From a virus, in the IMG/VR virus record IMGVR_UViG_3300025400_000015, positions 1 through 64,000 of that record: a stretch of 64,000 nucleotides of DNA; one strand, written 5' to 3'. The notes beneath the pieces are model-generated. The model had not been told where the DNA came from. It did no database searches and was given only the letters and a program-made list of their open reading frames with translations. This document shows positions 3,383 through 62,308 of this stretch, piece by piece (the stretch's first letter is position 1; the number at the start of each line of letters is the position of its first letter). Made by a program: the position numbers and the translations under genes.

Positions 3383-3613
3383 CTACTTTCGACCTTGTGC
3401 TCCAAGACGGAGTGCGGCTTCGGTGTCCGTGGTGCCACGACCACCAGTGGTCTGGATCTCGGGACGTGGGCCGGTGGCGTCACCAACAGGCATGTTCACA
3501 CGATCGCCACCCATCTGGCTCTGCTCAAGCAGAGTGGTTGGGCGGAAGTCGGCTACTTGCTTGCTATGCTTGCCCGAGTCAACACTGTATTCGGCATCGA
3601 AACGGCTAGGCAT
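3383..3613 (-). CDS. Small structural-module protein, copy A
   Basis: A 76-aa protein, conserved in copy B (75 aa) with identical blocks TTLLEQSQMG, DRVN and PRPEIQTTGG. Its start overlaps the stop of the upstream 85-aa gene, so the two are probably translated together. It is hydrophilic with no membrane segment. Function unknown; inferred minor virion or assembly protein. Confidence 0.65.
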   Translation of the reverse strand: MPSRFDAEYSVDSGKHSKQVADFRPTTLLEQSQMGGDRVNMPVGDATGPRPEIQTTGGRGTTDTEAALRLGAQGRK

Positions 3614-4839: not shown

Positions 4840-4860
4840 ACCCGTCCCCTATTCCAACTA

Positions 4861-6156
4861 CTAGGCCGCTGGGGTTGAGACCGTGGGCGAGCCGAGGGTT
4901 CCGACGCTGGTAACGCCAGGAATGACCACGTTGAAGGTGTAGGCAGTCGGGTTGACCGCGGTGACCTGGAACGTACCGTTGAGGTTGGTGTTCGTAGCGC
5001 TTGCGATGGTGACGGTTGCGTCCGTTGAGAACGGAGGAACAGTCGTGCCCGTGGTGAACTGGAAGGTGTTTGCGCCGACGTACGAAGCAGCGGTGATGCT
5101 GGTCGACGTAGCGGAGCCTTCGCCCGTGTTCACAGAGGGGTTGAACTGGGAGCTGGAGAGGTCCGTGCCCAGGATCGAGGTCGATTCAAGGCGGATGACC
5201 GAGGCCTGACGGAAGATACCGTAGGCGCCCAACCAGTACCAACCCAGCGGCACGAAGCGGCGCAGGCGGTCAGTGATCGGACCGGGAACAACGTGTGGGT
5301 ACGCGCCGTTGCCGTCGATCATCGAGTAGGCCTTGGCCAGCGACTGGCGACCAACGATGATGGTGCCGTAAACGTTGGCCGACGAAGCACCAGCACCCGT
5401 GTAGATCGGGGCACGTGGGGTTTCGATCCAGCGAACGCCTTCGAAGGCACCCAGCTCACCCGTCCAGATTTCACCCGGCTGGGCGTAGACGTGTGGTGCA
5501 CGCCAGCCCTGGATGTTCGAGGAACCTACGGTTTCACCCTGGAGGTCAGCAACAAGGTCAGGGTGGATGTAGCCAACGTACATACCGCCGAACGTAGGCA
5601 CGTTCTGCGAGCGCAGACGAGCGCGAGCGACGCGGATGTCAAACGCCGAAATGGTGTTGCCAGGCGAAGAGGAGCTGGACCAAGCGGCCAGGCTTGAACG
5701 AGCAGTCACCGAGCTAAGCGACGTAGCGCCAAGACCGTTGGTGTACTGCACGTTGGTGCCGGAGTCCAGAGCAGCGCGGGCAAGGGTGTCCAAGGACACA
5801 CCAGCGTTGTAACCAACTACGTTGGCTACAACGGGGTCAATGTCCACGAACGAGGTGCCACGCAGCTTGGCAGTGGTCAGCACAGCGTTACCGTATTCAG
5901 CCAAAGTCAGCGAGACCTGCGAGTCTGAAAGGGCAACAGCCGAAACGTCGGTGGTTTCGCCAAGAGCCGACGTGTTGATCGACAGGTCGTTGACGATGGT
6001 GAACGTTACCGAGGCACCAGGCATCGACTGTGCAGTGGGCTGCACGTCAGCGGCGGCGTCGAAGTAAAGTTCTGGGCGGAGGGCGAAGTATGCCAGTCGG
6101 TCATACGCCGCCTTTGAAAAGTCCAGTGTGGACTGGCCTGTGTAGGCGTCAGTCAT
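4861..6156 (-). CDS. N4-gp56-type major capsid protein, copy A
   Basis: This 431-aa protein builds the icosahedral head. Family evidence is the core TLAEYGNAVLTTAKLRGTSF, then DPVVANVVGYNAGVSLDTLA, diagnostic of the N4-gp56 major capsid family (HK97 fold). It follows the scaffold gene and has a clear Shine-Dalgarno (GAAAGGAA) before the ATG. Residues about 345-431 are a Ser/Thr-rich beta domain (NLNGTFQVTAV) that copy B lacks at this place. This is probably a surface-exposed decoration domain fused to the C-terminus. The family call is firm; the role of the extension is inferred. Confidence 0.93.
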   Translation of the reverse strand: MTDAYTGQSTLDFSKAAYDRLAYFALRPELYFDAAADVQPTAQSMPGASVTFTIVNDLSINTSALGETTDVSAVALSDSQVSLTLAEYGNAVLTTAKLRGTSFVDIDPVVANVVGYNAGVSLDTLARAALDSGTNVQYTNGLGATSLSSVTARSSLAAWSSSSSPGNTISAFDIRVARARLRSQNVPTFGGMYVGYIHPDLVADLQGETVGSSNIQGWRAPHVYAQPGEIWTGELGAFEGVRWIETPRAPIYTGAGASSANVYGTIIVGRQSLAKAYSMIDGNGAYPHVVPGPITDRLRRFVPLGWYWLGAYGIFRQASVIRLESTSILGTDLSSSQFNPSVNTGEGSATSTSITAASYVGANTFQFTTGTTVPPFSTDATVTIASATNTNLNGTFQVTAVNPTAYTFNVVIPGVTSVGTLGSPTVSTPAA

Positions 6157-8854: not shown

Positions 8855-11800
8855 CTAGTTACCGTACTTGTTTGGCAGTGAAGCCAAAGCGTGTTGAATA
8901 AAATATGCCTGGGTCTTAAATTGCGGGTCCGCGGCGACTTCTTGGCACCAGTTGTACCACTGGTTCTCAAGGCCCGTGGCGCTGCCGTTGCCGCTAATTA
9001 TTGCCTGCACCTTGGACACAACCGAGTCGTAGTTTTCAAGAACGAACGCAAACTTTTTTCGGTCGGTTTTGGTCATGATGTTTTCTGTAACCAATGGGTC
9101 CTTAACCAAGGAGCGCATTTCGTTAATAGAGTTGATCTCTGCGTTGTACCGAGATGCACCCTGGAAGTTGGAAAGCCACGTTGGGTTCATCGAGCGACCG
9201 TAATTTAATGCCTGGTCGTTCAACGCCTTGTATTCCTGGTAGCCAATGTTTGTGCCCGGGGCCATTCCGTTACCACCAAAAGCAGGCTGAGCGGCCAAAT
9301 AGTTGTAGTAATAGTCATTGCCTGCGGCCACAAGAATTGCGTCCAAGTATTGCTGTGGGGTATCCTTGGCTCGAAGGTTAAGAGAAACCTCAAGCGTGTA
9401 GGCCACAGGCGAGTACTTGCCATTGCGGCTAATGGTGTAGGCAAAAGCGTACGGGTATTTGGCAGCAAGCTGCTGGCCTTGCACCGTTGACAGAATTGCC
9501 GCACTTGACACCGTTTCTGGGTACGGCGTGTAATTGCTGGAGCTGTGGGCAACAAGGTCAAAAATGTTGTTGGGGTATTCAACCGCAAACTTATTAGCCG
9601 CTTCGGTAAAAGGCATGCGCGCCGACAGCGCCTGAAATTCTGGGCTCTTTGAGAACTGTTCCTGAATACTTAAAGCCGCAGGGGAAGCAAACGCCAATAC
9701 GCCCTTGACAAGCATCATCATGACAGCTGCACCGCGAGCGTGGTCCAAGAACGTTTGGAAGTTCTGAGGATTGTTGAAGTAGTCAGAAACATACAAGTCA
9801 GCTTGTGCACGAAGGAACGCAATCTTTTCGTTGGGGGTCCATGGTTGGCCGGTGTTGGGGTTTGTCTGCTCCAACGCTTTTTGGTAGTGCTTCCATGCCA
9901 AGTCATATTGCTGCGAGTACAGGTTGTCCAACGCATTGTTAAGAACCAAGTTTTCAGTGCTTCGCATAGCAGACGTGTTTAGGTCAGTAATGCCCGCAGC
10001 GTTTGCCAGCGCGACCGAAGCGTCCAAAAGGTTGCGGCCAATGGTACTTGGAAAGAAGTCACTGTACAAAGACGAGTTGTTTGAGACTGGACCAAGGATT
10101 GCCGCCAAAACTTTTGTGGCCAAAACGCCTGAGCTGGTTGCTCCGCTAAACATCTTTTCGGCAATCTTCAACGGCATTGTGACTAGCGGGCCCCACGATG
10201 GGCGGAACAAACCAAGGGCACCAGCAGCGCCGCTTTCTGATCCGGTGGGCACAACCGATGCAATTGAACCCGGGTCAATGGAAAGCCCAAAACCAAGGTG
10301 GCCAAATGCGCCGTTTGTAAAGCTGCCGACGTTGCCGCCAATTACACCAGCGTTGCCCAAGAACGTAGATCCTGGGACAGCAATGCTTGGGTTATTGCCG
10401 CCAGCCGAAGCATTGCTAATGTAATTGGTGACACCAAGGCAAAGTTTCAAGTATCGCTCAAACGCGCCTGGGTCATTGCGAAGCACGCGGAAAGCACGAC
10501 GCCATGCCTGGTTCTGGGCAAAGTAGAACGGCGCAAGCACGCGCATGTTTACTTCCCACAAGGTCTTGTCTTGTGGGTTGTGAACGTATTTGTGCATGTT
10601 AATAAACGCGTCACGGTCTGCAATCATGTGAGCCGTTGGTTCGTCAATCAAGTTGCGTTCAATAAGCGGGCGCAAACGCTCCATCTGCAAATGCTGTTCA
10701 AGCAAAAAGATTGGTTCGCGAACCATCTTGTTTACAATTGGCCCAAGGACTGCGTCGTGTCCTTTTTCGGCTACACGAGTAATAAGGTCGGACATCGAAC
10801 CTTCAACAAGGCCGCTGTGGCCGCCGATCGAAGGGATGTCTTCAGGGGCAAGATTGCCCATCTTTCGGACATCTTCGCGGAAGTCTTCAAGGCCCTTAAG
10901 CTTGTCTGGGTTTGCCGCCTGGGTTACAAGTGCTGGGTGAAAATAGTGGTCAACGTATTGCAACGTGCCATTGTTGTCCTCAAAGTAACCGCTACCAGAA
11001 ACGCTGGCAATAGCGTTTTCGGCAATGACGGCAGCCCACTCTTCGTGCGCGTTGCTGCGAGCAAATTTGCTTGTTGGCGGGATGCGGCCCGTGTCGCGCT
11101 GGAAACGGGAAACCTCTTCTGGCGGCAATGCCTCGATGGTTTCAAGAGCCTTCTTTTCCATTGCTGCCCGCAACGCGTCAACTTCAGTTGGCCCTATGTA
11201 CTTAACGCCTTGGCGAATAATTTCTTCGCGAGTAAACCCAAATTCATCTTTTGGGTCGGTAATTGCACCGTGAACAACTGCTTGCTGAAGGCCATAATTG
11301 TACAGCCATTCTTCCATTTCTTTTGAAACAGGAGCAAGCAACGGGTCGTTGGCAATACGAGCAATCTGCATGCGCAAGTCTGACTCGTAATTAGGGGCGC
11401 CAGGCATTGACAATGCAACGCCATTGCGTCCGTGCTTGGTTGACGGAACCCATTCGCCATTGTCGTTCTTTTCAAGAAGGATGCCAGACATTGTCTGCTC
11501 AACGGTCTTTTCATCAAAAACATCGTTCTTGGAACTGTGAACGCCACCGGGCAAGTGTCCATCGTGTCGCATGATAGTGCCGACAAAGTCGTCAAGCATG
11601 CGGTTGCGCTTTGCCTGATCCATGCCAAGAATCAAATTCTTTTGCATGCCTGTAAGGACACCGGCAACAACGTCGCGAATCAGCTTGCCTTCGTACGCAT
11701 CGCGAACGTAAGAATTAAATTCTTCCACGCTCATCTTTTGAGGGTCGAGTCCCTGTTTGGCCAAACGGGCAGCAACTTCGTCTGCCTTTTCACGGAACAA

Positions 11801-14800
11801 ACGAGCGCCATACGCTTCATGCTTGGCGATCGAGGCCATGACTTTTGCATCAAAAGATTGCCAGCCGCCAAAACGAAGACTGTTCAACATAGCTTCTGAG
11901 GCGCCTACGCGCAGGGCCCAGCCACCAGAAAACAAAGCCATTGGCACAAAAGTGCGGCTAAGGAATCGATTGATGGCGTCAACCGTGTATTGCCAACCCA
12001 TGATGTACGGGCTGCGCTTGCTGTACAAACGAGCAAGCTCTGTCTGCAAATTGGTTTCCGGTTTTTCGGCAAGAATTTCTTGGAAATTTTTACGGTCAAT
12101 GTTGGCCGAACGAATTCCCAAAGGAAGGTCTTCGGAATTGCCTAGGTAGCGGCTTTCCATAAAATTGTCAAAGACATTGTCCAGCAGTTCTGAAGAAAGC
12201 TTGTTTTTCATGCCGCTTAAAACGGAAGCAATAACAGAATGACCAAAATTTATCATTAAGTTTTCTTTGCCCGCTTCGGAAACAATTGGCGACAAAAGGT
12301 CCATTGTTCGTACCGCCAAAGATTCGGCAAAAAATTCGTCAACGCCGTGAAGCCAATAGTTTCGCCCATACGCGCTCATGGTGTAACCGGACAAGCGCGT
12401 AAAATCAATTGTCTTTGGATCAATCGGGTTGGTTCCGTTTACGTCCAAAATGTGATTGATGTAATCCATTTCCTCGCCATGAGAATGTACCCATCCAAGG
12501 GGAACGCCATCTTCTGTGTCTTTGTTCATGTAATCCCAAAGCGGGTGTTCCTGGAAAAACTTCTCTCGTGCGCGGTCAAAATCGTTTTCCATTTGCGCAA
12601 CGTATTCTTCGGGAAGGTACGTGGAGAGGTGGTGGAACAATTCATGATATACACTGAAATCAAAATTTAACGGGGCTTCAAGTGCGGCGCTGTAAATGTT
12701 TAATATTTTTTGACCAAACATGTACGACGCAAATGCGTCTGGATGGTCGCTACCAACCATAGCAATGACACCCGCAAAAAATTTTGGTCCGATTCGGTTT
12801 ACAAAATCAAGAAGTTCTTTTTCGTAATTGTCTGTTTTTTCGGCAAAGAATTTTTCAATAGCGGCCATTTCTTCAGGCGACGACGACTTAAATGTTTCCC
12901 GAAGTTTTTCAAGATCTGCTTTTTCTACAAGATCTTTATGCGTCTCAACAAGGTCTTTAATAAGCCGTTCGCCTTCTGGCGACGTGTCTTGTCGAGCACG
13001 AATAAAACTGTCAATTTTTGGAGGCGTGACAATAAAGTCCCGCTTCATTCCCTTGGGCATGTACCCCTTACGAAGCACTTCGCTCAAAGACCCAACATTC
13101 CATCGAGCTTCTTTAAGGTCTTCGGCAAGCCCAGCTAATTCACGCAAACCATAAACCGGAGATGCAAGAGGGCTTTGCATTGAATTTATAAATTGGTTCG
13201 TTGCCGAGATTTTTCCACGAACCTTTTCAAGCTCGTCCATCAAAAATTGTGGCGACGAAACGTTCAGGTCAAATCCAGAATGGGCGGTAATAACTCTGCT
13301 TGAAAAAATGCGCGTGTTGTTGAACGCAGCAATTCGGTCTTCAATTTCGCGCTTTTGCTGAAACAAGAAACGCAGCTTTGCTTCAAAAACATTAGCCGCG
13401 TGAACAAAATGCTCAACTTCGGAAGGCTCGGGCATTGATTCGCTCGCCCCGAATTCGTACATTGGGCTAAGGCCTGTTTTAAGAATTTTTGAAAGTTCGG
13501 CTTCGGCTTCTTCGTAGCCGTCAATAAACTTGCCCTTTTTAAGCGGCGGCTCCGTTGTCCACTTTTCAATGTCTTCCCGGTTGTGATCAATGATCATATT
13601 TTCGGGTTCGCCTAATTTACGGGCCCCACCTTCAGACATGGTAATCGCAGGTGCATCTTTTTCCCCGGCAATGGCGTGCAACGCTTGAAGCAAGGCTGCA
13701 CGGGCTTCTTTGTTCTTTGCCCCAAGGTTGTGGATTGTAAACGACCCGTCTCTTTCGGCAACATAATTAAGAACACCAACCATGCCTCCGATTTCGTCAC
13801 GGGCAACAACAATGTTTGAAGGCAAGTCGCCAAACCGCCGTTGAGCATTAAACCGCTCAAGGGCGCTGACCATTTGATCCAGGGTTTCGCTTGTGCCGTT
13901 AACAACCGTTTTTTGCGTGATTTTTTTAAATTCAGCAGCAAAGTGTTCATTAACAATTTCATGAAGCAAATAAGCGTGGGCAACGTCCGCTGGCGTATCG
14001 TTAACGTAAGCGTTTTTTCCCTGAAGCTTGTTCAGCCATGTTGGGTCATCGGCCAAACGTTCTTTTACATATTCGCGAAATTTTTCAGCGACTTCTTTGG
14101 CGCTGCCATCTGGGCCAACCTTAAACGGATTGGCCCATTTTGACCCTTCACCAACAAACACAGAGTCTTTAGGAACAGCAAGACCGGGCTTAGTTACATA
14201 ACCGGCTTTAAACCCAAGGCCTATTCCATAACTTTTTTGTTTATTGCGAATTGATTCATCAATCAAATGTTTAATAACGTCACCATGGCAAGCCAACGGC
14301 GAGCAGTTGCAGGAAATGTTTTTGCCCTTAAGCGGGTCCAGCCAATCCGGTTCTTCAGCCAAACGCTTTTTTGCGTACTCATAAAACTTTTCAATAACTT
14401 CTTCACGGGTTCCGTCCGGGCCAATCTTAAATGGATTGCCCCATGGCGTTCCTCTCCCAACATATATGGCGTCTTCCGGAGCGTCCTTTTTGTTAAAAAC
14501 GCCCTTAACCGAAATTGCTTCTTTGAACTTTTGACCCCTTGTTTTGGGTGAATCGCCGCTTGGGTATTGTGCCCGCTCTTCTGGCGTTAAGGCTTTTTGA
14601 AATTCGGAACGAATATCAGTAAGCAACTGGCCAAGTTTGTTTTGCCCAGGGATGCCAGCGCACTTGCCACAGGAACAATCGCCCCACGTATTGTCGTGCC
14701 AGGTGTTTACCTCAACAAGTTTTGCGTCACCAGTTTGCAACAACAAATCGCGCATGCCCGGTTCGCTAAACTTTTGGCGCACCAAGTTTTTCATTACGTC

Positions 14801-17800
14801 TTCGCGTATTAAATTCCAATCTTCGCGCAATGGGTTTTTGCGGCCAAGCCTACGTGCAGCATTTGGGTGATTGGCGTTGCGAATTTGTTCGCGCAAGTCT
14901 TTGTCGGTTGTTTTGGCTGCTTGAAATGCGTGCTCTACCGTTGGGTATGTCTTGCCTTCAAACACAACGGGCGACTCATGGAAGTTGGAAAGGAATCTAA
15001 ATTCGCCCTTAAAACCGTTTTCTTCTAATTCAATTTGTTTTAGGGTAAGTTCGCGTTTATAATTTTCGGAAGCCTCGCGCAAACGCGTAGCTTGCTGTTT
15101 GGCTTCTTCAACAAAATCGTCATGCTTTTCGGCCGCAAAGGGATTGCCAATCTCGGGCTCCGAAGGATAATGGTCAACTTCTCCATTGAAATTTTCTAAA
15201 TCAAGAATTTGCTGTTTTAATTCTTCGGGGTAATCGGTAAAGTCGTACCGATCTTCAGCTTTGACGTTTGCGTAAATATGACGTTCTTTGATGTATGGCT
15301 TAGTTGCGTTTTCAACAACTCCGTCGCGCGAAACACGCGCATACTCCGCCAAACGAAGCTTTTGTTCCAAGCTCAAAAGCCGTGGTTCAATTTCTTTACC
15401 TGCCAGCGTGGTGTACAAAACGCCCGAGATGCGACGCATCTCTTTGGCCAAACCACGAAGTTCTGCGGCACGTGGAATGCGCAGTTCGCCAAGGTGGGTA
15501 GAACCAATACCAGCGAATCCTTCAAGGCCAGTCTTGGAGTTGCCCACGCGTGAAAGGACGCGGCCCTCCTTACCGGCTACATACAAGCCGCGATCGCCAC
15601 CGCCGTCAAGGCCGGTCAGCTTCATAACTTCTTCCCAGATTTTGTTACCCATGGTGTGGGTCAAAATGCCAAGTTCGCCCTTTTCAAGACCAGCAACGGC
15701 GCGACGCATCGTGGCGTAATACATTGCCTGGCGGTATGCATTGATGTATTCCTGCGGCCCTTCGGCGTGAAGCAACAAGTCGCCAACAGCCTTAACGGCG
15801 TCTTCGTGCATAAGGGATGAACGCAAAAGGTCCATGATTGCTGGAATGGCGTTAACACTGCCTGGGCGAATAATTTTGTTTTCGATCTTGCCGGTCAGCT
15901 CATCAATGTACGATGAGTCGCGGGTAAAACGCGTGGCCAGCCAACGAAAGAATGCAGCGGTGCCACGAATGCTTTCGTCAGGCAAAGCAAACAACAAAGC
16001 GCTGTTGGGTTTAATGTCAACGCCTGTTTCTTCGCGAATGACTTTCCATACGGACTGAATAAAAGCACCGTCGGAATTAAGCAGATTACCCAGAATGTGA
16101 AACCGGCGTCCAAGGTCGCCCTTTAGTTCTGCCTTGAAAATTTCGTACATGCTCATGCTGGGCATCATGCCATTTACAATGCTGCTGCCTTCAGCTATGT
16201 CACGGAAAACCGCAAGGACCCCCTCTTCCGTGTTTGCTTCGCCCAGTCGCTTAATAAGCGTTCCAGCCTTAACGCTTTTGTCGGCAGAATCTTGAAACGT
16301 GTTGCGGAATGTATCCAAGATTTCCGATGCGCTGTGACTGGCAATGTAGTGAACTGCATTGCGCACACGTGCGTACTGCTGGTACGCAAGGTCAACGTCG
16401 TCCGCGTTGCGAATGCCAAGTCCGCTAAACCAAGCGCCCAGTGTGCCAGTAAAACCAGCAAACGATCGTGAAGTGTGCAAGACTTTGCCGTACGCGCCCA
16501 ATGGGTCGGTACCAAGCCATTTGGTGTAAAAATCGGTCAAACCGGACACCGGAGCGAAGAAAGGGTTGCCCTTGTCGATGCCAAAATACTGAGCCAACAT
16601 TTGGCCATCAGTGCCAATTATTTTGCCATTTGCGTCATAGGCATTTCCGTCACGTGTCTTATTCCAAAGATCAATCAACGGCTGGTCATTGCTGTTAAGA
16701 ACATTTTCTTGATTCACCAAATACATGGCGTTTAAACGAACGCTGGACGTGGCCTTGCCTGCCAATCGAGCGGTTTTCATTAAATAACCCAAAGGGCGGA
16801 ATGCTGCCTGCGAAGCAAGGTCCGCCAACTTGTATGCAGTGCCTCGGTCGGTGCCTGCAAACTTGCCCGATTGCAATTCGCGTTCGGCGCCAATCTTAAG
16901 GCGCTCTACAATTGCCTGTGTGCTGCGTTGTTCTGCGGCTTTAATGGCAGCTTGGGTTTCTTCGTCTAGCGTCTTTCCCGCAGCTTTTGCTGCATTGCCC
17001 ATTGCAACCAATCGGCTGTCTTCCGCCATTTGTATTGACGCTTGAAGCGCTTCGGCATTTGCCGCAGCAACAGATGCGTCGGTTGACGCGCCATCGGTTG
17101 CAAGCCCCGCAAGGATGGATGGAAGCATGTAGGAAAGTGCATAATTCCAACCACGCTGAGCAGCCAACGACTCGGTGAACGCCATTGTGTGCGACATCAA
17201 TTGGTATGCGTTTTGCTGGCTCCACGGATCGATCAGGCGAGTTACGCTAAGCGCAACGTTGTTTGCGGTGTTGTAAGCATCGCCAAGGCCTACAAGTGGA
17301 TTCCCTTGAAAACCGTTTGGCCCAAAAAAACCAATAGTGGCAATTTCGTCAGTGGTTAACATTCCTCGCAAAGCAATGTTTTTTCCCCAATCGGCAAGGC
17401 CCCCAAGGCCTTGGCCGACCCCACTTACTTTGTCCATAATGTTGTTGCCTATTGACCCCCAGAATCCATACTGGGCTTCACTGGCAGCAGTTTCCTGCAC
17501 GCTGTCATTTAAAACGTTGTATCCGTCTTTAACAACGTTTGTTGCGGCGTCCCACAAACCTGACGGGGCACCCTGCAAAAAATTGCTTGCGCCTCTCCAT
17601 GCATTTGACCACATGCCCGAAACGTCATTTGTGAAGTGGCCCCAACCACCATCGTTGTTTGCATACCCGTGTACGTATCGACCGATCTGGTTATACGCAG
17701 TCAAGTACTTAACGGCATTTGAAATCTGGGTAGGGCTTGCATTGTCCATGCGAGCAAGGCTTGCAATTGTTGAAGGGTTCTGGGCAATCAATGGATTGAT

Positions 17801-17956
17801 TGAAGTAATACGGGCAAGGCCGTGTTGTTGCGTTGGGCTTAATGCATTCATGGCGTCGGAGTCAATATTCTCCTGCGCCAAAGCAATTGCCTTTTGGCCA
17901 ATCGGGCTTGTCGTTGGCGTGCTTTGCTCTAATGGGATTCCATTGATTGAGGGCAT
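8855..17956 (-). CDS. Giant probable ejection protein with NADAR, two DUF4326 and zincin-like domains, copy A
   Basis: At 3033 aa this is the largest gene. The N-terminal ~970 and C-terminal ~1030 residues resemble the copy B protein. Between them are about 930 extra residues: NADAR at ~985-1125 (FRFLSNF, TVEHAFQAAK with E1008, GQNKLGQLL); DUF4326 at ~1155-1235 (GRGTPWGNPF with W1172, CNCSPLACHGD from C1216); a second, altered DUF4326 at ~1260-1335; a possible acetyltransferase-like region ~1386-1450; and a zincin site (H1771-E-L-F-H1775, with DEFFAES near 1872 as a possible third ligand). NADAR proteins act on ADP-ribose linkages. Position between portal and capsid genes suggests delivery with the DNA, which is inference. 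Confidence 0.8.
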   Translation of the reverse strand: MPSINGIPLEQSTPTTSPIGQKAIALAQENIDSDAMNALSPTQQHGLARITSINPLIAQNPSTIASLARMDNASPTQISNAVKYLTAYNQIGRYVHGYANNDGGWGHFTNDVSGMWSNAWRGASNFLQGAPSGLWDAATNVVKDGYNVLNDSVQETAASEAQYGFWGSIGNNIMDKVSGVGQGLGGLADWGKNIALRGMLTTDEIATIGFFGPNGFQGNPLVGLGDAYNTANNVALSVTRLIDPWSQQNAYQLMSHTMAFTESLAAQRGWNYALSYMLPSILAGLATDGASTDASVAAANAEALQASIQMAEDSRLVAMGNAAKAAGKTLDEETQAAIKAAEQRSTQAIVERLKIGAERELQSGKFAGTDRGTAYKLADLASQAAFRPLGYLMKTARLAGKATSSVRLNAMYLVNQENVLNSNDQPLIDLWNKTRDGNAYDANGKIIGTDGQMLAQYFGIDKGNPFFAPVSGLTDFYTKWLGTDPLGAYGKVLHTSRSFAGFTGTLGAWFSGLGIRNADDVDLAYQQYARVRNAVHYIASHSASEILDTFRNTFQDSADKSVKAGTLIKRLGEANTEEGVLAVFRDIAEGSSIVNGMMPSMSMYEIFKAELKGDLGRRFHILGNLLNSDGAFIQSVWKVIREETGVDIKPNSALLFALPDESIRGTAAFFRWLATRFTRDSSYIDELTGKIENKIIRPGSVNAIPAIMDLLRSSLMHEDAVKAVGDLLLHAEGPQEYINAYRQAMYYATMRRAVAGLEKGELGILTHTMGNKIWEEVMKLTGLDGGGDRGLYVAGKEGRVLSRVGNSKTGLEGFAGIGSTHLGELRIPRAAELRGLAKEMRRISGVLYTTLAGKEIEPRLLSLEQKLRLAEYARVSRDGVVENATKPYIKERHIYANVKAEDRYDFTDYPEELKQQILDLENFNGEVDHYPSEPEIGNPFAAEKHDDFVEEAKQQATRLREASENYKRELTLKQIELEENGFKGEFRFLSNFHESPVVFEGKTYPTVEHAFQAAKTTDKDLREQIRNANHPNAARRLGRKNPLREDWNLIREDVMKNLVRQKFSEPGMRDLLLQTGDAKLVEVNTWHDNTWGDCSCGKCAGIPGQNKLGQLLTDIRSEFQKALTPEERAQYPSGDSPKTRGQKFKEAISVKGVFNKKDAPEDAIYVGRGTPWGNPFKIGPDGTREEVIEKFYEYAKKRLAEEPDWLDPLKGKNISCNCSPLACHGDVIKHLIDESIRNKQKSYGIGLGFKAGYVTKPGLAVPKDSVFVGEGSKWANPFKVGPDGSAKEVAEKFREYVKERLADDPTWLNKLQGKNAYVNDTPADVAHAYLLHEIVNEHFAAEFKKITQKTVVNGTSETLDQMVSALERFNAQRRFGDLPSNIVVARDEIGGMVGVLNYVAERDGSFTIHNLGAKNKEARAALLQALHAIAGEKDAPAITMSEGGARKLGEPENMIIDHNREDIEKWTTEPPLKKGKFIDGYEEAEAELSKILKTGLSPMYEFGASESMPEPSEVEHFVHAANVFEAKLRFLFQQKREIEDRIAAFNNTRIFSSRVITAHSGFDLNVSSPQFLMDELEKVRGKISATNQFINSMQSPLASPVYGLRELAGLAEDLKEARWNVGSLSEVLRKGYMPKGMKRDFIVTPPKIDSFIRARQDTSPEGERLIKDLVETHKDLVEKADLEKLRETFKSSSPEEMAAIEKFFAEKTDNYEKELLDFVNRIGPKFFAGVIAMVGSDHPDAFASYMFGQKILNIYSAALEAPLNFDFSVYHELFHHLSTYLPEEYVAQMENDFDRAREKFFQEHPLWDYMNKDTEDGVPLGWVHSHGEEMDYINHILDVNGTNPIDPKTIDFTRLSGYTMSAYGRNYWLHGVDEFFAESLAVRTMDLLSPIVSEAGKENLMINFGHSVIASVLSGMKNKLSSELLDNVFDNFMESRYLGNSEDLPLGIRSANIDRKNFQEILAEKPETNLQTELARLYSKRSPYIMGWQYTVDAINRFLSRTFVPMALFSGGWALRVGASEAMLNSLRFGGWQSFDAKVMASIAKHEAYGARLFREKADEVAARLAKQGLDPQKMSVEEFNSYVRDAYEGKLIRDVVAGVLTGMQKNLILGMDQAKRNRMLDDFVGTIMRHDGHLPGGVHSSKNDVFDEKTVEQTMSGILLEKNDNGEWVPSTKHGRNGVALSMPGAPNYESDLRMQIARIANDPLLAPVSKEMEEWLYNYGLQQAVVHGAITDPKDEFGFTREEIIRQGVKYIGPTEVDALRAAMEKKALETIEALPPEEVSRFQRDTGRIPPTSKFARSNAHEEWAAVIAENAIASVSGSGYFEDNNGTLQYVDHYFHPALVTQAANPDKLKGLEDFREDVRKMGNLAPEDIPSIGGHSGLVEGSMSDLITRVAEKGHDAVLGPIVNKMVREPIFLLEQHLQMERLRPLIERNLIDEPTAHMIADRDAFINMHKYVHNPQDKTLWEVNMRVLAPFYFAQNQAWRRAFRVLRNDPGAFERYLKLCLGVTNYISNASAGGNNPSIAVPGSTFLGNAGVIGGNVGSFTNGAFGHLGFGLSIDPGSIASVVPTGSESGAAGALGLFRPSWGPLVTMPLKIAEKMFSGATSSGVLATKVLAAILGPVSNNSSLYSDFFPSTIGRNLLDASVALANAAGITDLNTSAMRSTENLVLNNALDNLYSQQYDLAWKHYQKALEQTNPNTGQPWTPNEKIAFLRAQADLYVSDYFNNPQNFQTFLDHARGAAVMMMLVKGVLAFASPAALSIQEQFSKSPEFQALSARMPFTEAANKFAVEYPNNIFDLVAHSSSNYTPYPETVSSAAILSTVQGQQLAAKYPYAFAYTISRNGKYSPVAYTLEVSLNLRAKDTPQQYLDAILVAAGNDYYYNYLAAQPAFGGNGMAPGTNIGYQEYKALNDQALNYGRSMNPTWLSNFQGASRYNAEINSINEMRSLVKDPLVTENIMTKTDRKKFAFVLENYDSVVSKVQAIISGNGSATGLENQWYNWCQEVAADPQFKTQAYFIQHALASLPNKYGN

Positions 17957-20306: not shown

Positions 20307-22220
20307 TTACCTCAAGTTCGCTAGTTGGGTGTTGCGTACCCACTTGGGGCGCCATGCCTGGACCGCAATGGATCGTGGCTGGTGCAAGTTTGGAATGTTC
20401 CATTCAAAGAACCATTCCGCCATTACGCAGTCGTCTGTACGCCCGTGAGGGTACTTGGTTACCTCGTCGATAAGATGCATCGACCGGGTTTTGCCTTCAC
20501 CCTTACCCATCAATCTTACACGACCAAATCGCCAATGTTGGGAAATCGTCGTAACACCGTAATTTGGGTCACTCTTGTTACTGGTGGTATTGTGAGGAAT
20601 TACTTCGACGCCGCTGAGTTGCCGCCATCTTTTAAAATGGTCGTACTGAAGCATGAATCGCTGGGCGGCATTTTGTTCAATAATCCACCACTGTATCGGG
20701 AAACCGATACTGGTCGATAAACGCTGCCATTCTTCCATGACCCCAGTGAATTCACCGAGATTGTAGTTGTATTCCAAAAACTCCGGGGCTTCCATCTTCT
20801 TACGAATAAGGTCAAGCAAAAACCGTTGTTGGCTTTCAGGATGGTATAGCCAGCATTGAATCGACCAATAATTAGTTGGCGACGGGTCTGCCGTGGCGAT
20901 AACCATGCAATCGGCTGGATTAAGCCCCGGGGGTATCTCCCAACGGTCTCTATCTTTGTCAATGCACCCCACGCTCCCTCCGTGTCCGTAGACCCATTCA
21001 TTCCGAACCAGCGTCTCATCTAGCGCAATGTCTTCTTGCTGGTAGACGACCGCAAAGCGTTCACCACGGTTTGACATAAGATTCGATATTTCGCGCCATG
21101 GGAGTCGACGGGGGTCCAAAAGGCAACCCGTAGGATACGCTTCAGATCCTCTTTTGTGGAAAGCGGGGTCGCATCGATCTTCGTAATGGGCACGGTACAG
21201 CAGGTGCTTGTACTTCTTGTCGTGTCGGAGATTGGCGATTTCATCATCGGTAAGTTCGTCAAGTATTTCATCTTCCTCCAAGGGCTGGGTCATGTCCAGC
21301 GCAAAGCGATATAGGTCATCAGGAGCAAGCCGCTGGCCAATAAGGGCAAGCATGCCAGCAGGTTCCAGACGAGTCTCGGCCACGTCTTGGTACCAGTCTT
21401 CCATGGCTTCTCGCTGTTCAGCACTTCGTACTTTACGAGGGTCCACAAGGTCGTCCCAAAAACAACCATCAAAGCGGCCACCAATAAAACCTGAGTCCAT
21501 ACCGTAAGCACTGAGCGTTGGTTCCTTTTCTGAGATAGCGCCGTTTTCTTCGGGCTGCATAACAATAAATGCTTCATTGGTCCAAAGCTCTTTTTCCAAA
21601 GGCTTAAACCGGCCAAAGTCAAGGGCTAGGGTTGATTCGGCGTCGACCGCTTGTCCACGGGCTTTAAGGTTGTCATCGGCCAATTCAGGAATGACGCGCT
21701 CTAGGGAACGGCGAACGCGCATTAGGTTTCGCTTAGCCAGGCTCATTGTGGCCGATCCGGTCAGCAAACGCACTGCTCGGTTTCGGCAAATGATCCAGCA
21801 CGTCAAATCGTGGAGCAAGGTCGTTTTACCAGAACCCGGGGGCATGTTCATGACCACGTATTCTTTTTGCTCAGACTCTAAGAGTTTGACCAGTTCAGTA
21901 CCGGCTTCTTCCTGCCACGGCGTAGCGATGCGCCCAAAGTACCGGCGCCGAAAATACCCAAAATCCTCTAAGGCCAGCTTGGCTTCTTCGCACAAACTGT
22001 CGTATGGCTTGGGCCCTTCAAGCTTGGCTTCTACCTTAAGCTCTCGGTAGTTGGACGCTGACGTGTCCATTTGATCTGCCGCTTTTAGCGTTTGGGCGGC
22101 TTTCTCTACGCGGTAGGCCGTAGCTTCCGAAAACTTTGCTTTGCGGGCGCTGTCGGCAATGGAGAAACCAGCCGTGCGCGCTTCAAAGTATTTTTTGCGT
22201 TGGGCGGGAGTAACAGCCAT
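20307..22220 (-). CDS. terL: Terminase large subunit, copy A
   Basis: A 637-aa packaging motor. Residues 1-45 look like a helix-turn-helix (AxRKAKFSEATAYRVEKA), perhaps replacing a separate small subunit. The ATPase Walker A is MPPGSGKTTLL near residues 125-135, and FDGCFWDDLVDP is the probable Walker B region. The C-terminal nuclease shows TADPSPTN and HGRTDDCVMAEWF acidic motifs. It cuts concatemeric DNA and pumps it into the head. Copy B is the same length and very similar. No separate small terminase gene was recognised nearby. Confidence 0.93.
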   Translation of the reverse strand: MAVTPAQRKKYFEARTAGFSIADSARKAKFSEATAYRVEKAAQTLKAADQMDTSASNYRELKVEAKLEGPKPYDSLCEEAKLALEDFGYFRRRYFGRIATPWQEEAGTELVKLLESEQKEYVVMNMPPGSGKTTLLHDLTCWIICRNRAVRLLTGSATMSLAKRNLMRVRRSLERVIPELADDNLKARGQAVDAESTLALDFGRFKPLEKELWTNEAFIVMQPEENGAISEKEPTLSAYGMDSGFIGGRFDGCFWDDLVDPRKVRSAEQREAMEDWYQDVAETRLEPAGMLALIGQRLAPDDLYRFALDMTQPLEEDEILDELTDDEIANLRHDKKYKHLLYRAHYEDRCDPAFHKRGSEAYPTGCLLDPRRLPWREISNLMSNRGERFAVVYQQEDIALDETLVRNEWVYGHGGSVGCIDKDRDRWEIPPGLNPADCMVIATADPSPTNYWSIQCWLYHPESQQRFLLDLIRKKMEAPEFLEYNYNLGEFTGVMEEWQRLSTSIGFPIQWWIIEQNAAQRFMLQYDHFKRWRQLSGVEVIPHNTTSNKSDPNYGVTTISQHWRFGRVRLMGKGEGKTRSMHLIDEVTKYPHGRTDDCVMAEWFFEWNIPNLHQPRSIAVQAWRPKWVRNTQLANLR

Positions 22221-22773: not shown

Positions 22774-22801
22774 AGTATACACAAAAATCCCCACCAGTTA
22801 C
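22774..22801 (-). promoter_or_regulatory. Candidate leaderless promoter of late operon A
   Basis: On the minus strand TATACT (22774-22779) ends six bases before the ATG at 22767. Copy B has TATAAT with the same six-base spacing. Transcription would begin at or next to the start codon. Seventeen bases further upstream both copies carry CGTAAC rather than a standard -35, inside the hairpin described next. An unusual -35 or an activator site is possible. Confidence 0.6.
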
Positions 22802-22814
22802 GGTGGGGATTTTT
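22783..22814. terminator. Symmetrical hairpin with A and T tracts overlapping the late promoter
   Basis: A 13-base arm (22783-22795) pairs exactly with 22802-22814 around a six-base loop, with five A at one end and five T at the other, so it could terminate transcription from either side. It overlaps the upstream part of the late promoter. The copy B dyad (62211-62235) is less perfect but keeps the central ACCGTAAC and GGT sequence. It could instead be an operator. Confidence 0.65.
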
Positions 22815-22888
22815 GCGGAAGGGTTTTGTGTGGTTGTCCTGAGGATGGACGTTCCCAGTGTATCACGGGTGGGACCGTATGTGTGTCA

Positions 22889-22956
22889 GGGGTTAAAAAA
22901 TTTTTGAAGCACCGGGGTGCGAACTTGCAAAAAGGCCCCGTCCGGAGACGGGGGCC
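22889..22956 (-). terminator. Conserved noncoding block and terminator-like hairpins, copy A
   Basis: The block 22889-22920 (AAAAAATTT, GAAGCACCGGGGTGC) recurs at 62309-62342. The small hairpin at 22909-22920 followed by T-rich sequence on the minus strand could be a terminator. A second hairpin at 22934-22956 has nine paired bases and a minus-strand T5 run. Because the block lies next to the terminase operon it could alternatively be a packaging site. Confidence 0.5.
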
Positions 22957-23096
22957 AATTTGCATCTATGAGCAAGACGGATCGCAATGTAGGTACAAAC
23001 ATTATAGCAGATGGAGTGCAGAGAGGGGGGTCTGGGCGGATCCAAATCTTTGGGTAGGTTACGCCGCAAACGACTGGCCGCGGCCGCCGAATGGTG

Positions 23097-23545
23097 TACA
23101 CTGGATGTATCGCCATTGGCAGCGGTCGTGGGTGGAAGCCCCCGCGGAGTGTGAGTCTGGAAACAGATACTCGCCGCAGTTACCCGGTTAGAGCGGGATT
23201 CGGTTGGCGCACCCTGAATGCAATTTGGTTGCTTTGGGGAAGAGTTGAGGAGTTGCATTGCTCCACAAACAGTCCTTGCGCCGTGCGGAACAGGTATTGC
23301 AGACTCTTCGGAGTTGAGGGAAATGCGGGCAGAGTTGTAAGCAAACGATACTAGCCCCCATAATCCCGAGGTAGAAAACCTTCCGCCGCGGATGACACCC
23401 ACTGATAGTACTTTTGATAGATACGACGCATAGCCGCGGCCGCGACCGCGGCGCCTGGCCTGGTGACGAGAATGACAGTTTTCGGTAGAGGGGATAACAA
23501 CTCTTGGTAGCACGACGGGCTCGGCACACACCCGGTCAAGTCGCT
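23097..23545 (+). ncRNA. Candidate large structured noncoding RNA, copy A
   Basis: The 5' ~110 bases (23109-23218) are about 90% identical to 62801-62910, although flanking sequence is diverged. They fold as a closing stem (23111-23115 with 23205-23209) around three hairpins: 23127-23132/23141-23146, 23147-23150 plus 23156-23159 with 23164-23172, and 23183-23186/23194-23197. The four differences from copy B in the hairpin area fall in loops or linkers. A TACACT -10-like box at 23097-23102 would start transcription near the closing stem. Shared motifs continue to ACGAGAATGACAGTT (23466-23480) and CTCGGCA near 23520. Length suggests comparison with GOLLD or ROOL RNAs; identity is unproven. Confidence 0.6.
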
Positions 23546-23597
23546 GGTAAACACAGAGTTTTTTTCCACACCAGAATATGTGTGCCTCGCATTTTAC

Positions 23598-24450
23598 GGA
23601 ACCGACCCGGTTCCATATCCTCCCGGGCAAACTTGGAAGGGATACCTTCCAAAGTTTGCAGTTCCGCTTGCAACCAGCCAGAATGAGAAACAAATTGGAG
23701 GGGAAGGCGTTGGATTAGCAAGACGGCTAAAGCCGACTAATCCGGGATCCTCCCGCTAGTAAGACGCCGACGGGGGCGTCGTCATCTTACTGCACGGGCC
23801 CCTCCCGGTTCATGAGTGTCGCCCTAAATTTGCAGCCTGCATTTACAACGCACGTTTGCGGGGGCGTAAACCCAACGATCCGTAAGTTCGGGGAAACCCC
23901 TCTCTAACGGACTCGGTAGGTTTCACACCCTTTGAGCAAACGCACGTTGTTGCAGGCTCAAATTTACCAAATCTCGCGATTTGGACGGGCGCCACCGTCC
24001 GGCTGGGAATCGCGGCGAGCGGCCCGGCCCCAAGGGGCCTATGGTTTGGTCAGTCCCAAAAGCGGACTGACCGCACCTATGCCGCTACGGCTTGTCCGAG
24101 GGGGGGAGTGAACCCCCCCCGTCGGCCTACGCCTGTCGCCTCCGGCCAAACTCACACACAGTTGGTTCCATGGTACGGGATAAATTTCGCGTGTCAATCC
24201 GTAAACGGACGGGAGCCTGCATTGCGCCCCTGCGGGGCACAATTCTTAGCAGGCTTCTCAGAAACTTTTCACAATTACGGCCCCCCGCAAGCGGGGCCCC
24301 CCGGAATTCTGAAAACTTCCTGCGACGCGTTCCGCGCCCTGTTGACACACGAAATTCACCCCCTTCGCCGCCCGCGCCAACGACGCACTGCGTCGTTGTC
24401 ACGTTCGCCTCGGCCATTTGCTAAGCCCCACACGTTCGCTAGCGAACGTG
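23598..24450. other. Protein-free region packed with hairpins
   Basis: No convincing gene. Consecutive inverted repeats are visible at 23598-23614, 23627-23659 (14-base arms), 23712-23743, 23759-23790, 23826-23965 (about 30-base arms around further hairpins), 23967-23984 (perfect), 23983-24000, 24026-24039, 24048-24072 (nine perfect pairs), 24100-24120 (G7/C7), 24214-24255, 24378-24398 and 24431-24450 (perfect 20-base palindrome). Copy B has different sequence here. It may continue the upstream RNA, be a set of RNAs, or be a replication origin. The strand is uncertain. Confidence 0.55.
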
Positions 24451-24521
24451 AGTGGCAAAGCAAACGCCGTCCTCCTGTCCCAACTATGCGTGAGATGCGC
24501 GCATAGGGAAAGAGGATGAGT

Positions 24522-30539: not shown

Positions 30540-30678
30540 TCGTCTTTTCGATCAGCACGGCAATCGCTTCCTGAATCTTCGTCTGCTCGACGCCGACCTG
30601 CACTAAAGCAGCCAGAAAGTTGACCATCATGTTGTCAACAGACTCTTCAATTTTCTTAATAATTTCTTCATTTGTCAT
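30523..30678 (-). CDS. 51-aa helical protein
   Basis: A short frame from ATG 30678 (MTNEEIIKKIEESVDNMMVN) to the stop at 30523. It is wholly helical and acidic, with IQEAIAVLIEKTSDDA at the end. It overlaps the 173-aa gene upstream and the nuclease downstream, filling the gap exactly. Function unknown. Confidence 0.55.
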   Translation of the reverse strand: MTNEEIIKKIEESVDNMMVNFLAALVQVGVEQTKIQEAIAVLIEKTSDDDA

Positions 30679-31196
30679 CGAACTAAGCCTAGCACACGCT
30701 TGATGCTCTCCGGCATTGGCACCGCCTCTTCACGCTCTCGACGCTTCTTTTCAAAGAACTCGCTGTCGACGGCAGGAATTCGTGGGGCGGTGTCCTGCAC
30801 AACAATGACTTCTCCGTCACGTTGGCGCTGCGCAAGCATCGTGTGGTAGTGCTTGCGGAACTTGATCGGTGAAAAAATAACCGTGCCCCAGAAAGCATGA
30901 CCAACGCACCACGTCAACATTTCTTCGACGTTGGGCACCGGCACCTTGTCAATGCGCAACAACTTTTCCATTGCGGAAACGTTCGTGTCGTTCATAACAA
31001 AAGGGCGGTGGGAGTTGGCAACAATGCCTTCGTTGAGGCGCTCACAAAGCGTTCGAGCCTGCGCCCATGTCTCTGTATGCTTGGTTCGTGCCACAGTTCG
31101 GGCGTTGACGAATTTCTTCATTTCCTCCACCTCTTCCACGGTGACACGCCCCTCCTGAATTAACAAACACAAAACTTCCTTGTACGCGTCAGTCAT
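30675..31196 (-). CDS. DnaD-like replication protein (probable helicase loader or replisome organiser)
   Basis: A 173-aa protein. The segment AFWGTVIFSPIKFRKHYHTM resembles the conserved C-terminal motif of phage replisome organisers and DnaD-like proteins, where a Trp, a Ser-Pro turn and LRK/FRK precede the end. The N-terminus is helical. It lies in the same operon as SSB, nuclease and ERF. No polymerase, primase or helicase is visible in the window, so a protein that recruits host replication enzymes would fit. Moderate confidence. Confidence 0.55.
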   Translation of the reverse strand: MTDAYKEVLCLLIQEGRVTVEEVEEMKKFVNARTVARTKHTETWAQARTLCERLNEGIVANSHRPFVMNDTNVSAMEKLLRIDKVPVPNVEEMLTWCVGHAFWGTVIFSPIKFRKHYHTMLAQRQRDGEVIVVQDTAPRIPAVDSEFFEKKRREREEAVPMPESIKRVLGLVR

Positions 31197-41258: not shown

Positions 41259-41939
41259 TTAGTTCATCGCTAGAAGCATGTTGCCGCCAGCGGTGGCAGC
41301 AGCGGGGATGATAAAACCGTAGACCGTACCGACTCCGTAGCCACTGGCTGATGCAGGGCTGACGTATGTTGCGCTGCTTCCTGATGATGAGGCAATCTGA
41401 TAGTCAATAAAAGGAGCGCGAGAGTTCACAATGGATGACCCAATAAACGTGTCTGAAACGCCCGCCCAGGTTCCGGTCGGCGTTGTCGACGCCCAGGTAA
41501 AGGCTTCACCAACCGCCAACAGCAATTCGCCGGATGACCATGAAAGACCCCCTGTCGTAACCGTTGAACCAAGTGTTCCGTTCGTCAATGGACCGAAGGC
41601 TGCGGTTGGAACAAATGACTTTGAGCAGCCGGAGAAAATGGCGATTGAGTAACTACCCGCACTGGTCGAAGGGTTGCTGCTCAGCGTCACCGCATTTGAC
41701 ATATACCCCGCCGTAGCATTGACGCCAATGGCAAACCAGTTACCCTGAGCGGCGCCGCCGGAGTTGGTGCCAAAGTGATACCACGTTGCGCCAGCACCGC
41801 TTGCGGTTACAGTGGTCCAGTTTGCGTTACCCGAACCAAGTGCAATGACGATGAGGTCGCCAGCCACAGAAGTGCGTGGCAAAGAAATAGACGTGGTAAT
41901 CGTATTGTTATTGCTACCATTGACTCCAGTAATAGCCAT
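41259..41939 (-). CDS. Virion surface / fibre-associated protein, copy B
   Basis: 226 aa from the ATG at 41939 (MAITGVNGSNNNTITTSISL); a longer frame upstream would overlap the fibre gene and lacks support. It is the complete version of the gene cut at the window start. Beta-rich, ending in a Gly/Ala-rich GFIIPAAATAGGNMLLAMN. Most of its sequence is nearly identical to copy A. Probably attached to the fibre or capsid surface. Confidence 0.75.
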   Translation of the reverse strand: MAITGVNGSNNNTITTSISLPRTSVAGDLIVIALGSGNANWTTVTASGAGATWYHFGTNSGGAAQGNWFAIGVNATAGYMSNAVTLSSNPSTSAGSYSIAIFSGCSKSFVPTAAFGPLTNGTLGSTVTTGGLSWSSGELLLAVGEAFTWASTTPTGTWAGVSDTFIGSSIVNSRAPFIDYQIASSSGSSATYVSPASASGYGVGTVYGFIIPAAATAGGNMLLAMN

Positions 41940-44900
41940 TACGCCACCGCCACACAACGCCACTTAGATGTGGCACCGTTGTAGATAAAGCCAATGGTAA
42001 GCGGAAGCGTTGTTGAACCGTTGGACGAAGTCGGCACGGAAACAGTCGAGTTTTCTGTGTTGCTGAAAGACAACGTCACGGAAGAGGCGGAGTAGTCGTA
42101 GAAGCGAACGATTGATTGCATGCCATCAACAGCACTTGTGGTCGACATGGTAATCGTGACCGACAGAGCGGCGTTGTTCGTTACCTTGGTTGAGGTGTAC
42201 GATGATGGCGTGACCGTAGCCGTTTGCGAAGCAACAGTTACCGAGCCAACGCTGGGGGCCAGCACGTTTGCCGTGACGCTGGTAGCCGTGGCCACACCGA
42301 GAGTTGGCGTTGTCAGGCTGGGCGATGTTGAAAGAACTACCGAGCCGGAGCCAGTGGATGTTGTCGCGCCGGTACCGCCGTTAGCCACTGGCAGGGTTCC
42401 GGTGACGCCAGTACTTAGTGGCAGGCCGGTGCCGTGCGTAAGGGTGACGCTCGAAGGGGTGCCCAGGCTAGGGGTCGAGGACAGGGCGAGGGTGATCTGA
42501 CCGTTCGAGTAGGTGACGACGATGTTGCCACTGCTGTCGGCGTTGAGCGAGGGGACTGCCGACGCCCATTTACCCGATGCGCCGGTGGTCTCGACGATGC
42601 CGAGCCAGTAGGCACCAGGGGCAATCCATACGGGGTTATTTGCGCCTGCGCCGTCGATGCTCTGGCCGGTGCTGGGGTAGATTTTGAGCCAGTGAGTGCC
42701 GTCGGTGTTGTGCACCCATACCGCTTGACCGGCGGAAGAGATGAAGGGCAGGATTACCGCCGTGCCTGCGCCGCCGTTGGTGGTAGCGGTTGCGCCCGAG
42801 ACGATGTTGTAGTTGTACGTCAGCGCCGTCGAGCTGTATTGCGTCGAGCCTGCCGCCGTGATGTTGCCCGTTGTGCCGACCGTGCCGTTGCCGACTGATT
42901 GCCAGGTTCCAGGCGTACCGCTTGCCGTGCAGACCCACATTTTGCCGTACTGGTCAACAACAAAGTCACCAACAAGAGCTGGGAAAGAACCGGACGGTGC
43001 GCCAGAGGTTGTTGAACCAATGAAACGAGATGCAGTCAAACCATAGCCAGCCACGTTGACGCCAAGCGCACCTGTAACAACGTCAAGTTCTCCAACGCCA
43101 GCGGCAAGGTTGTCGGTCCATTTTACATAATTGCCTGAGCCAGACGATTTACCCAATGTAAGCGTGTTTGACCCGTTGGCGTAATAGCCACCCGTTGAAT
43201 CAACGTGGCCCGTAAACGCGGCGGAAGTACCGTTTAGTGTTGAGGTCAATGGAACATTTAGCCCATTGGATGAAACAATAAACCATTGACTACCAATCAA
43301 GGAAAATGAATACAAATATCCAGGAGCCAAAGAATAATAAGAGGGGGAGCCGCCCTGTGTCGCCACAGTACCGGTGCCAGGCAGATAGATAGTTTGTCCT
43401 GTATTGGGGGCAATTGAAAGGTTATACAAACCTTCGTTTACAACGGTGACACTACTTCCATTGCTGGGGGAAAGAGGCAATGTAGCGGTGATGCCGTTTG
43501 TGGTACCAGTCCAACAAACTACTTGATTGCAATTCAGATTAAAGTTTGTGCTGTCTGACCGCAGGATAGTCGGAGGCACATTGGTTTGCGTAATTTTGTA
43601 AACGCTAGTTGAAGCAGTCGAACCGCCCGTGATGCCACCGTACAAAGAAGAAGTAACATCGTTGTACGAAAACGTTTCAAAGTAGTTTTGTCCACCGTCA
43701 TTTACAACGCGGATTGTGGAACCAACGGTAGTCACCGACAAGCCCTTGACGTTAATAATCGCCACGCCGCCATTGGTTCCAAGAACAATGGCAGAACCCA
43801 GAATCTGGAAAACGTTTGAACTTGGGAGGGCGTTTGTCCAACCACTAACCGTAAGAGTAGTAGCGGTGTTTGCCGTGATAACACCCGCCGTAAACCCAGC
43901 AGCCTGAGTACCCACCAAAACACTTAGACCTACCCATTGGTTTGTCGTCCATGATGCGGTTGAATAAATGAGAGTAGTCGAAGTGACAGAGTTTGCCGTT
44001 GCAACTGGAGTCTTGTACGTGTCGTATGCAGCGCCACCAATAATTTCCGAAGCGCCACCGTATTTTGTGAACACAAAACCGTCAGGATCAGAGTCGCAGA
44101 TGCAGTTAATAAAGGTTGCAGTTGCGTCAACATAATACGACCCAACGCCATTTCCATAACAATGAGCTTGCGTAATTTGCAGGCCGCCACCGTAGCCGGG
44201 ATTGCCAGAAATGTTTTGGCCAGAAACATAGATGCCATAATTGGAATTAAGGTACGACAGGATGTTGTCAAATTCGCTGTCGTGTGGCCCAAGCCATTGA
44301 ATTCCGTTTTGACAATTGTGGGTTTTTACATTAACCAAACGGGATTCCATCGAGTCCGGCTGATATGCCGTGGAATCTGAGGACCACTCGGAGTAAATGC
44401 CAGCGTTGCCAAAAGAGCGAACGTCAACGTTTTCAATAATAAAATCGTATCCATAAACGAGGATACCGTAGCCAGTTCCCACCATGCCTGTTTGATATGA
44501 CTGGCTGCCGCCGTCAATGAACAAGTCTTTAATGGCGAAGCGGCTGATACCGGCAGTTGAATTAGTGCCGGTAAGGGAAGAAAAGTTCTGACCAACAATA
44601 ACGTTGCCCGTCGATGCCGTCAGCCGGTACAGACCGCTTGAGCCGACGCCATTTCCCTGAAGGGTTACGTTAGAGAAAAGAGTGAGAGGGCTTGAAACAA
44701 ATGAAATGCCAGGAATGTATACAACCCCACCACCGTTTGAGTTGGCGTCGTTAATTGCCGCTTGGATGGCTGCGGTGTCATCCGTGCCGTATGCGAAGTC
44801 AACATCGCTTTTACCCAACGGGATAGCGTCGGCAACAAGGATGTTTTGAGCATCGGTGTAACCGGCAATCGTTGTCACAAAGTTAACGCCACCCGTGCCG

Positions 44901-62235: not shown

Positions 62236-62308
62236 CCTACGGAAAGTAGCCTGAGTGCTATGCGGGATTGTCCCGCTCCATTATCGTATCACAAATCACA
62301 CCATTGCG

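Follow-up and report, generated by a model that had tools for sequence, protein, structure and literature searches.

A structured RNA family beside the late operon of lake phages, possibly related to the origin RNAs of actinophages

The locus and its relatives

The window analysed here is positions 1-64,000 of the 64,966-base IMG/VR record IMGVR_UViG_3300025400_000015. It carries two phage units, each with a structured RNA beside a minus-strand late operon that contains a terminase (phrog_38), a portal-like protein and a major capsid protein (phrog_1357). The terminases of the two units are 92% identical and the portals 90% identical at the protein level. The stretch 1-1057 is repeated at 41357-42413 with 91% identity, and a relative (G002), which covers most of the window from 1 to 41 kb, has only one unit, of 40 kb, and one RNA. 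From this single unit and the repeat, the contig probably consists of one phage genome of about 41 kb and 23 kb of a second, related one. The seam most likely arose in assembly, from two relatives that occur together, and a natural tandem of two units is the less likely alternative. The presence of WhiB suggests an actinobacterial host. We use lake phages as a label for the group; it presumes a habitat from IMG sample numbers.

Other genes of the window include SSB, RusA, Erf, a Cas4-like nuclease and a DnaD-like helicase loader. The late operons also hold very long minus-strand open frames at 8855-17956 (3033 aa) and 51237-57422 (2061 aa). Hairpins with T-runs lie directly 5' of the late operon start at 22783-22815, 22935-22955 and 62205-62240, as they do in the relatives L151-L153, and suggest antitermination of the late genes. 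The main features are listed below, with scores from R1, a covariance model of the 5' domain of the RNA.

20307-22220, minus strand: terminase large subunit (phrog_38, E 5e-53); the RNA lies upstream of its operon, in divergent orientation
23108-~23538, plus strand: structured RNA of unit 1 (R1 120.5 bits, E 3e-26, itself a training sequence of R1); its 3' end is set provisionally at the last conserved block
23468-23538, plus strand: conserved 3' block, GAGAATGACAGTT..C.RT.......ATA...CTCGGCA...GGTCA, present with few exceptions in relatives that span the 3' part
30675-31196, minus strand: DnaD-like helicase loader (phrog_2514, E 1.2e-11), a possible initiation partner
62800-~63347, plus strand: structured RNA of unit 2 (R1 118.8 bits, E 7.5e-26, also a training sequence of R1); 3' block at 63277-63347
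63414-63474, plus strand: 22-nt direct repeats 3' of the unit-2 RNA, possibly iteron-like

The RNAs of the two units are 84% identical over about 250 nt. A first-pass annotation had reported two copies with a 5' part about 90% identical. Both are present at the places given, and their core is closer than claimed, with 96 of 100 positions identical between 23108-23207 and 62800-62899. The four differences (23136, 23139, 23163 and 23177) had been placed in loops or linkers only. Three do fall in hairpin loops, whereas one changes a G-C pair of helix P3 to G-U. The proposed recurrence of motifs over about 440-550 nt agrees with the second conserved block found in both units (23468-23538 and 63277-63347), and alignments of segments contain a further variable hairpin along with this 3' block.

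Beyond the RNA, unit 1 has about 950 nt of hairpin-rich non-coding DNA (23560-24515), where unit 2 instead has about 300 nt with the 22-nt repeats. In L086, L092 and L093 the RNA is followed by repeats that differ in sequence from these, and none is clear in L096 or unit 1. Repeats or hairpins occur 3' of the RNA in several members and are not conserved.

Homologues were collected by scanning viral contigs for exact patterns and by searching with terminase relatives. Relatives were found on more than 50 IMG/VR contigs, and R1 gave 53 matches over 83 loci, with E of about 1e-6 or better in all cases except one. In every relative that spans both, the RNA is upstream of, and divergent from, the p108-p82-terminase operon. 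In the more distant members, L091/L083 (39 bits) and L099 (30 bits), the RNA is likewise divergent from a terminase. No RNA was found within 5 kb upstream of the terminase in L220 and L224, whose terminases are 57-58% identical. As for L151-L153, with terminases about 90% identical, other coding sequence occupies the place of the RNA and the available sequence then ends, which is no proof of absence.

Blastn of the window RNA against 50,697 phage records gave no match, and plasmid records matched neither this RNA nor the origin RNA of phage Blue7. The GTDB genomes, scanned for a prophage copy or host, gave a single hit (L144) to the pattern only; since the other parts of the RNA were missing there, no prophage copy was found.

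Some further observations concern individual relatives. In two of them (L117:2658-2740 and L138:3995-4076; 48 and 55 bits), P1-P3 are of another kind while the rest of the RNA is normal, which looks like an exchange of the 5' end. Furthermore, L091 has two sub-threshold matches to the type II hammerhead, at 4852-4911 and 5283-5341 (30.3 and 29.5 bits, cut-off 37), both in gaps between open frames and the first 3' of a RusA-like gene.

Secondary structure, promoter and coding potential

The hairpins P1-P4 were placed by eye and their pairs then counted across the alignments.

23109-23126, plus strand: hairpin P1; 4 of 5 pairs with two-sided changes, 98.8% paired in 33 sequences
23130-23142, plus strand: hairpin P2, loop UGNRANU; 3 of 3 pairs with two-sided changes, 100% paired
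23144-23177, plus strand: hairpin P3, with outer and inner helices and a loop of variable length; 9 of 11 pairs with two-sided changes
23183-23197, plus strand: hairpin P4, CCCGGUUAGAGCGGG; 3 of 4 pairs with two-sided changes, 100% paired, also in mycobacteriophage origin RNAs
23205-23283, plus strand: long-range helix P5 (23205-23211 with 23277-23283) and the hairpins it encloses; seven helix forms
62875-62889, plus strand: hairpin P4 of unit 2, from the R1 match and the covariation alignment

Covariation supports this domain strongly, far above controls with slid pairing. In the alignment of 33 distinct sequences (A6), 97.6% of cells are paired and 19 of 23 pairs change on both sides, with a covariation of 0.437 against at most 0.068 in slid controls. 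The alignment of 40 distinct rows (A4) has 96.5% paired, 18 pairs with two-sided changes and 0.363 against 0.066. Both were fitted to the model, so the plain MAFFT alignment of 18 distinct sequences (A2) is the cleaner test; there, 97.8% are paired, 13 of 23 pairs change on both sides, and covariation is 0.302 against 0.073 or less. This analysis over metagenomic homologues, which the first-pass annotation had suggested, rules out a chance repeat or a duplicated flank. It upholds the structured domain of that annotation and corrects the number of hairpins from three to four (P1-P4).

The most conserved hairpin is P4, CCCGGUUAGAGCGGGAU, with the loop N-UYAGA-N. The loops of P2 (UGNRANU) and P4 (UYAGA) appear to match the T-loop pattern. 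Helix P5 pairs the base 3' of P4 with a strand 35-95 nt further on. Seven different helices occur among 21 sequences, all fully complementary; a strand and its own partner form 7.1 bp on average, against 4.5 bp for swapped partners, which reach at least 6 bp in only 17% of cases. In terms of minimum free energy, the 100-nt core is no better than its shuffles (z = -0.68) and the 548 nt give z = -2.0. Folding energy alone is insufficient to reveal the structure, and it is covariation that reveals it.

Promoter-like sequence precedes both RNAs.

23058-23065, plus strand: GTTACGCC box of unit 1, 5' of the RNA promoter; GTTACG-like, found roughly 45 nt 5' of P1 in the majority of 33 aligned upstream regions
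23097-23102, plus strand: -10 hexamer TACACT of unit 1, by consensus match only; a GGTGTAYAMT block lies 5-7 nt 5' of P1 in most relatives
62751-62758, plus strand: GTTACGCC box of unit 2, by sequence match
62767-62794, plus strand: promoter TTGCAC-16-TATCAT of unit 2, by sequence match

The GTTACG-like box is shared by most relatives, as is a sigma70-type -10 that ends 5-7 nt upstream of P1; in some, a full TTGACA -35 is present as well. The full TTGACA-16-TACAAT is found in L086 and L093, and the upstream sequence differs in L117, L138 and the most distant members. Comparison of frames across relatives found no open frame common to them, and loop lengths change in steps that are not multiples of three. 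Conserved frames in the homologues, which would have spoken for a gene, are therefore missing, and a coding sequence is ruled out. The RNA is probably autonomously transcribed and non-coding. Covariation, the promoter-like sequence and the lack of conserved frames together bear out the initial proposal of a conserved structured RNA adjoining the late operon. For comparative data, the support for the RNA itself is about as good as can be had.

A likeness to GOLLD or ROOL had also been proposed. These are structured non-coding phage RNAs of several hundred nt, like the one described here, and tRNA genes are frequent, though not obligatory, near GOLLD. The suggested Rfam search returned no family at gathering score in either unit, the GOLLD and ROOL models were absent from both even at E<10, and the window has no tRNA genes, hence no tRNA array near the RNA. 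The likeness was therefore abandoned, and GOLLD, ROOL and any other Rfam family are ruled out as the identity of the RNA. The further suggestion of a new class is probable, given the covariation, the conserved promoter, the non-conserved frames and the lack of an Rfam match.

Comparison with mycobacteriophage origin RNAs

A better comparison is with the origin RNAs of cluster A mycobacteriophages. In non-RepA parABS phages of this cluster, a region expresses a non-coding RNA and acts as an RNA-based replication origin (Wetzel et al. 2020, PMC7157519). About 600 bp of the region is enough to replicate a plasmid in M. smegmatis, in the cases of Gladiator, RedRock, LadyBird, Alma and Et2Brutus. 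When the region is deleted in Alma or LadyBird, lytic growth is normal and lysogens are unstable; in the same two phages, the frames in the origin are unnecessary for replication (PMC7157519). The main text of that paper does not contain the terms “secondary structure” or “stem-loop”.

The link came from a 17-mer of P4. A scan of viral contigs with it also brought up contigs of phages that do not resemble those of the window, among them L085, which by blastn matched unannotated gaps in Mycobacterium phages and in Gordonia phage Daredevil. The corresponding region of Blue7 matched 128 phage records, including Gordonia phage Schiebs (14,646 bp). In mycobacteriophages it sits between the tail genes and parA, on the opposite strand to both. 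Annotated genes for hypothetical proteins lie across the origin RNA, on its opposite strand, in Blue7, LadyBird and Alma (L139:3102-3248, L230:695-925 and L241:269-577). In Daredevil, an unannotated gap of 1.2 kb before the terminase (L140:2922-4111) holds an origin-type RNA domain, and a tRNA-like stretch was seen by eye near 3470-3540.

Fourteen origin RNA sequences also fold into four hairpins, with 99.0% paired, 11 of 21 pairs changing on both sides and a covariation of 0.355 against 0.090 or less in slid controls. A model of this domain (R2), built with Alma left out, matches Alma at 94.5 bits inside the deleted origin. It also finds L079, L080, L085, L098, L078, L090, L088 and L097 (55.8 to 22.8 bits). 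There is no R2 match in the RepA phages Rachaly and CRB1, in D29, in Gordonia phage Rosalind, in Schiebs or in Et2Brutus. Of five mycobacteriophage RNA origins tested, four have the domain. Et2Brutus, rejected as a member, has an RNA origin that works without it, so not every RNA origin requires the domain.

Both sets have the order P1-P4, joined by linkers 1-6 nt long, and several members share an identical P4 stem-loop over 17 nt. Variation between U and C in the P4 loop also occurs on both sides, in L201 among the lake phages and in RedRock and others among the origin RNAs. The exact 17-mer is present in 27 viral contigs, 25 of which carry lake-phage or origin-type RNAs by R1 or R2; several origin-type loci were found through this motif, so the P4 evidence is partly circular. 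For the Blue7 origin, R1 gives a score of 20.8 bits, with E 0.0009 over 24 kb. With R3, a model from lake-phage lineages only, origin-type loci take eight of the top nine places in a set of 80 loci, with a lake-phage relative in the other place, and rank above 55 control loci; their scores are 13-19 bits, with single E values of 0.07-0.6. The reverse search, with R2 over the lake phages, was not significant: the best score was 13.8 bits (E 0.7, L096), and the window reached 10.7 bits (E 3.4).

The two kinds of RNA are both non-coding and share four covarying hairpins in the same order and the P4 loop N-UYAGA-N. They differ in overall sequence, with no clear similarity beyond P4, and in the P2 loop, and their 3' parts cannot be aligned. 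The cluster A origin RNAs are transcripts of their own, and the promoter-like sequence suggests the same for the lake-phage RNA. Finally, the known origin RNAs lie by parA in temperate phages, and the lake-phage RNA beside the terminase in phages without detected ParA or integrase. On balance, these comparisons favour homology between the lake-phage RNA and the actinophage origin RNAs.

Possible functions of the RNA

We give about even chances to the proposal that these RNAs are a new phage family, probably distant kin of the actinophage origin RNAs, which starts or controls replication on the host replisome. The transcript would start at P1, fold into the P1-P4 domain and remain at, or come back to, its template. 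There it would open or prime the DNA, as an RNA-primer or R-loop origin of the kind known from ColE1 plasmids, and the DnaD-like loader and SSB of the phage would then recruit the host replisome. The host replisome is invoked because polymerase and helicase of the phages' own were not detected: five records of the group had no detectable DnaB-type helicase, family A polymerase (PolA), tyrosine or serine integrase, or ParA (PF13614), although fragments and other families may have escaped this search. With a loader and no polymerase, a phage would need the host replisome at an opened site, and a transcript that opens its own template would fit. The proposed mechanism resembles that of ColE1 RNA II, a structured transcript that starts DNA replication; no counterpart of the antisense RNA I was identified here. 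GC skew gave no origin signature and was dropped as evidence: the RNA strand is mildly G-rich, inside the genome range, and the mycobacteriophage RNAs are not G-rich. The weakest point of the analogy is the lytic role. The lake phages have no sign of lysogeny (no integrase and no ParA found), whereas mycobacteriophages with the origin deleted grow normally in the lytic cycle.

As a single explanation, an origin RNA is the best available, and we hold it to be right in roughly one case of two. Its main rival, clearly less probable, is a stable, early, trans-acting RNA with no role in replication, which would bind host RNA or protein for take-over or regulation. The model would be mycobacteriophages L5, D29 and StarStuff, which make an abundant RNA of about 500 nt from Pleft near the genome end, from a region that in D29/L5 is toxic to the host (PMC5712189). 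The Pleft RNA lies at a comparable divergent-operon junction, and the lake-phage RNA has its own promoter-like sequence on the early-operon side of such a junction. Its fold is elaborate, and the apparently T-loop-like loops of P2 and P4 resemble motifs for tertiary contacts or the tRNA elbow. Against this, neither R1 nor R2 matches the D29 region, so that the Pleft RNA was rejected as a homologue, and it is the origin RNAs that P4 and the layout match.

The remaining readings are improbable. The constant position beside the terminase operon in lake phages, and the closeness of a terminase in L091, L099, L085, L097 and Daredevil, would suit a packaging RNA with a role like that of phi29 pRNA; such a role is unlikely, as the cluster A relative lies in the interval from the tail genes to parA and its deletion does not impair lytic growth, and Rfam has no match in either unit. 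A little less likely again is a cis-acting leader (riboswitch or attenuator) of the early genes. The next genes of the window are on the same strand (24516 and 63706, plus), but about 350-1000 nt separate RNA and gene. Moreover, nearby amidoligase/GATase genes lie on the strand of the RNA in L024, L084, L121 and L128 and opposite to it in L092, L111, L114, L116, L122 and L125, whereas the RNA and the terminase side are fixed. Least probable of all is an RNA cage like ROOL or GOLLD without sequence similarity to either; size and phage setting would fit, but the RNA is shorter than a typical GOLLD, and neither an Rfam match nor a nearby tRNA accompanies it.

Returning to the origin RNA, RNA-initiated phage replication has been shown in one phage cluster so far, and we found no published structure. 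A covariation-supported secondary structure is now given for the origin RNA domain of mycobacteriophages, and the origin-type domain is extended to other actinophages, namely Gordonia phage Daredevil and several short phage contigs. Alongside it stands a new RNA family, on more than 50 lake-phage contigs, which may share a clan with the origin RNAs. Tentatively, and at somewhat less than even odds, RNAs with the P1-P4 core would be protein-free replication origins in very different actinobacteriophages. Such a widespread clan might, with the same reserve, span parABS prophages, mini-phages of about 14-15 kb and the lake phages, in which neither integrase nor ParA was detected and where it would serve the lytic start. 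It can now be tested if a defined fold of RNA initiates DNA replication in phages, and which of its loops matter.
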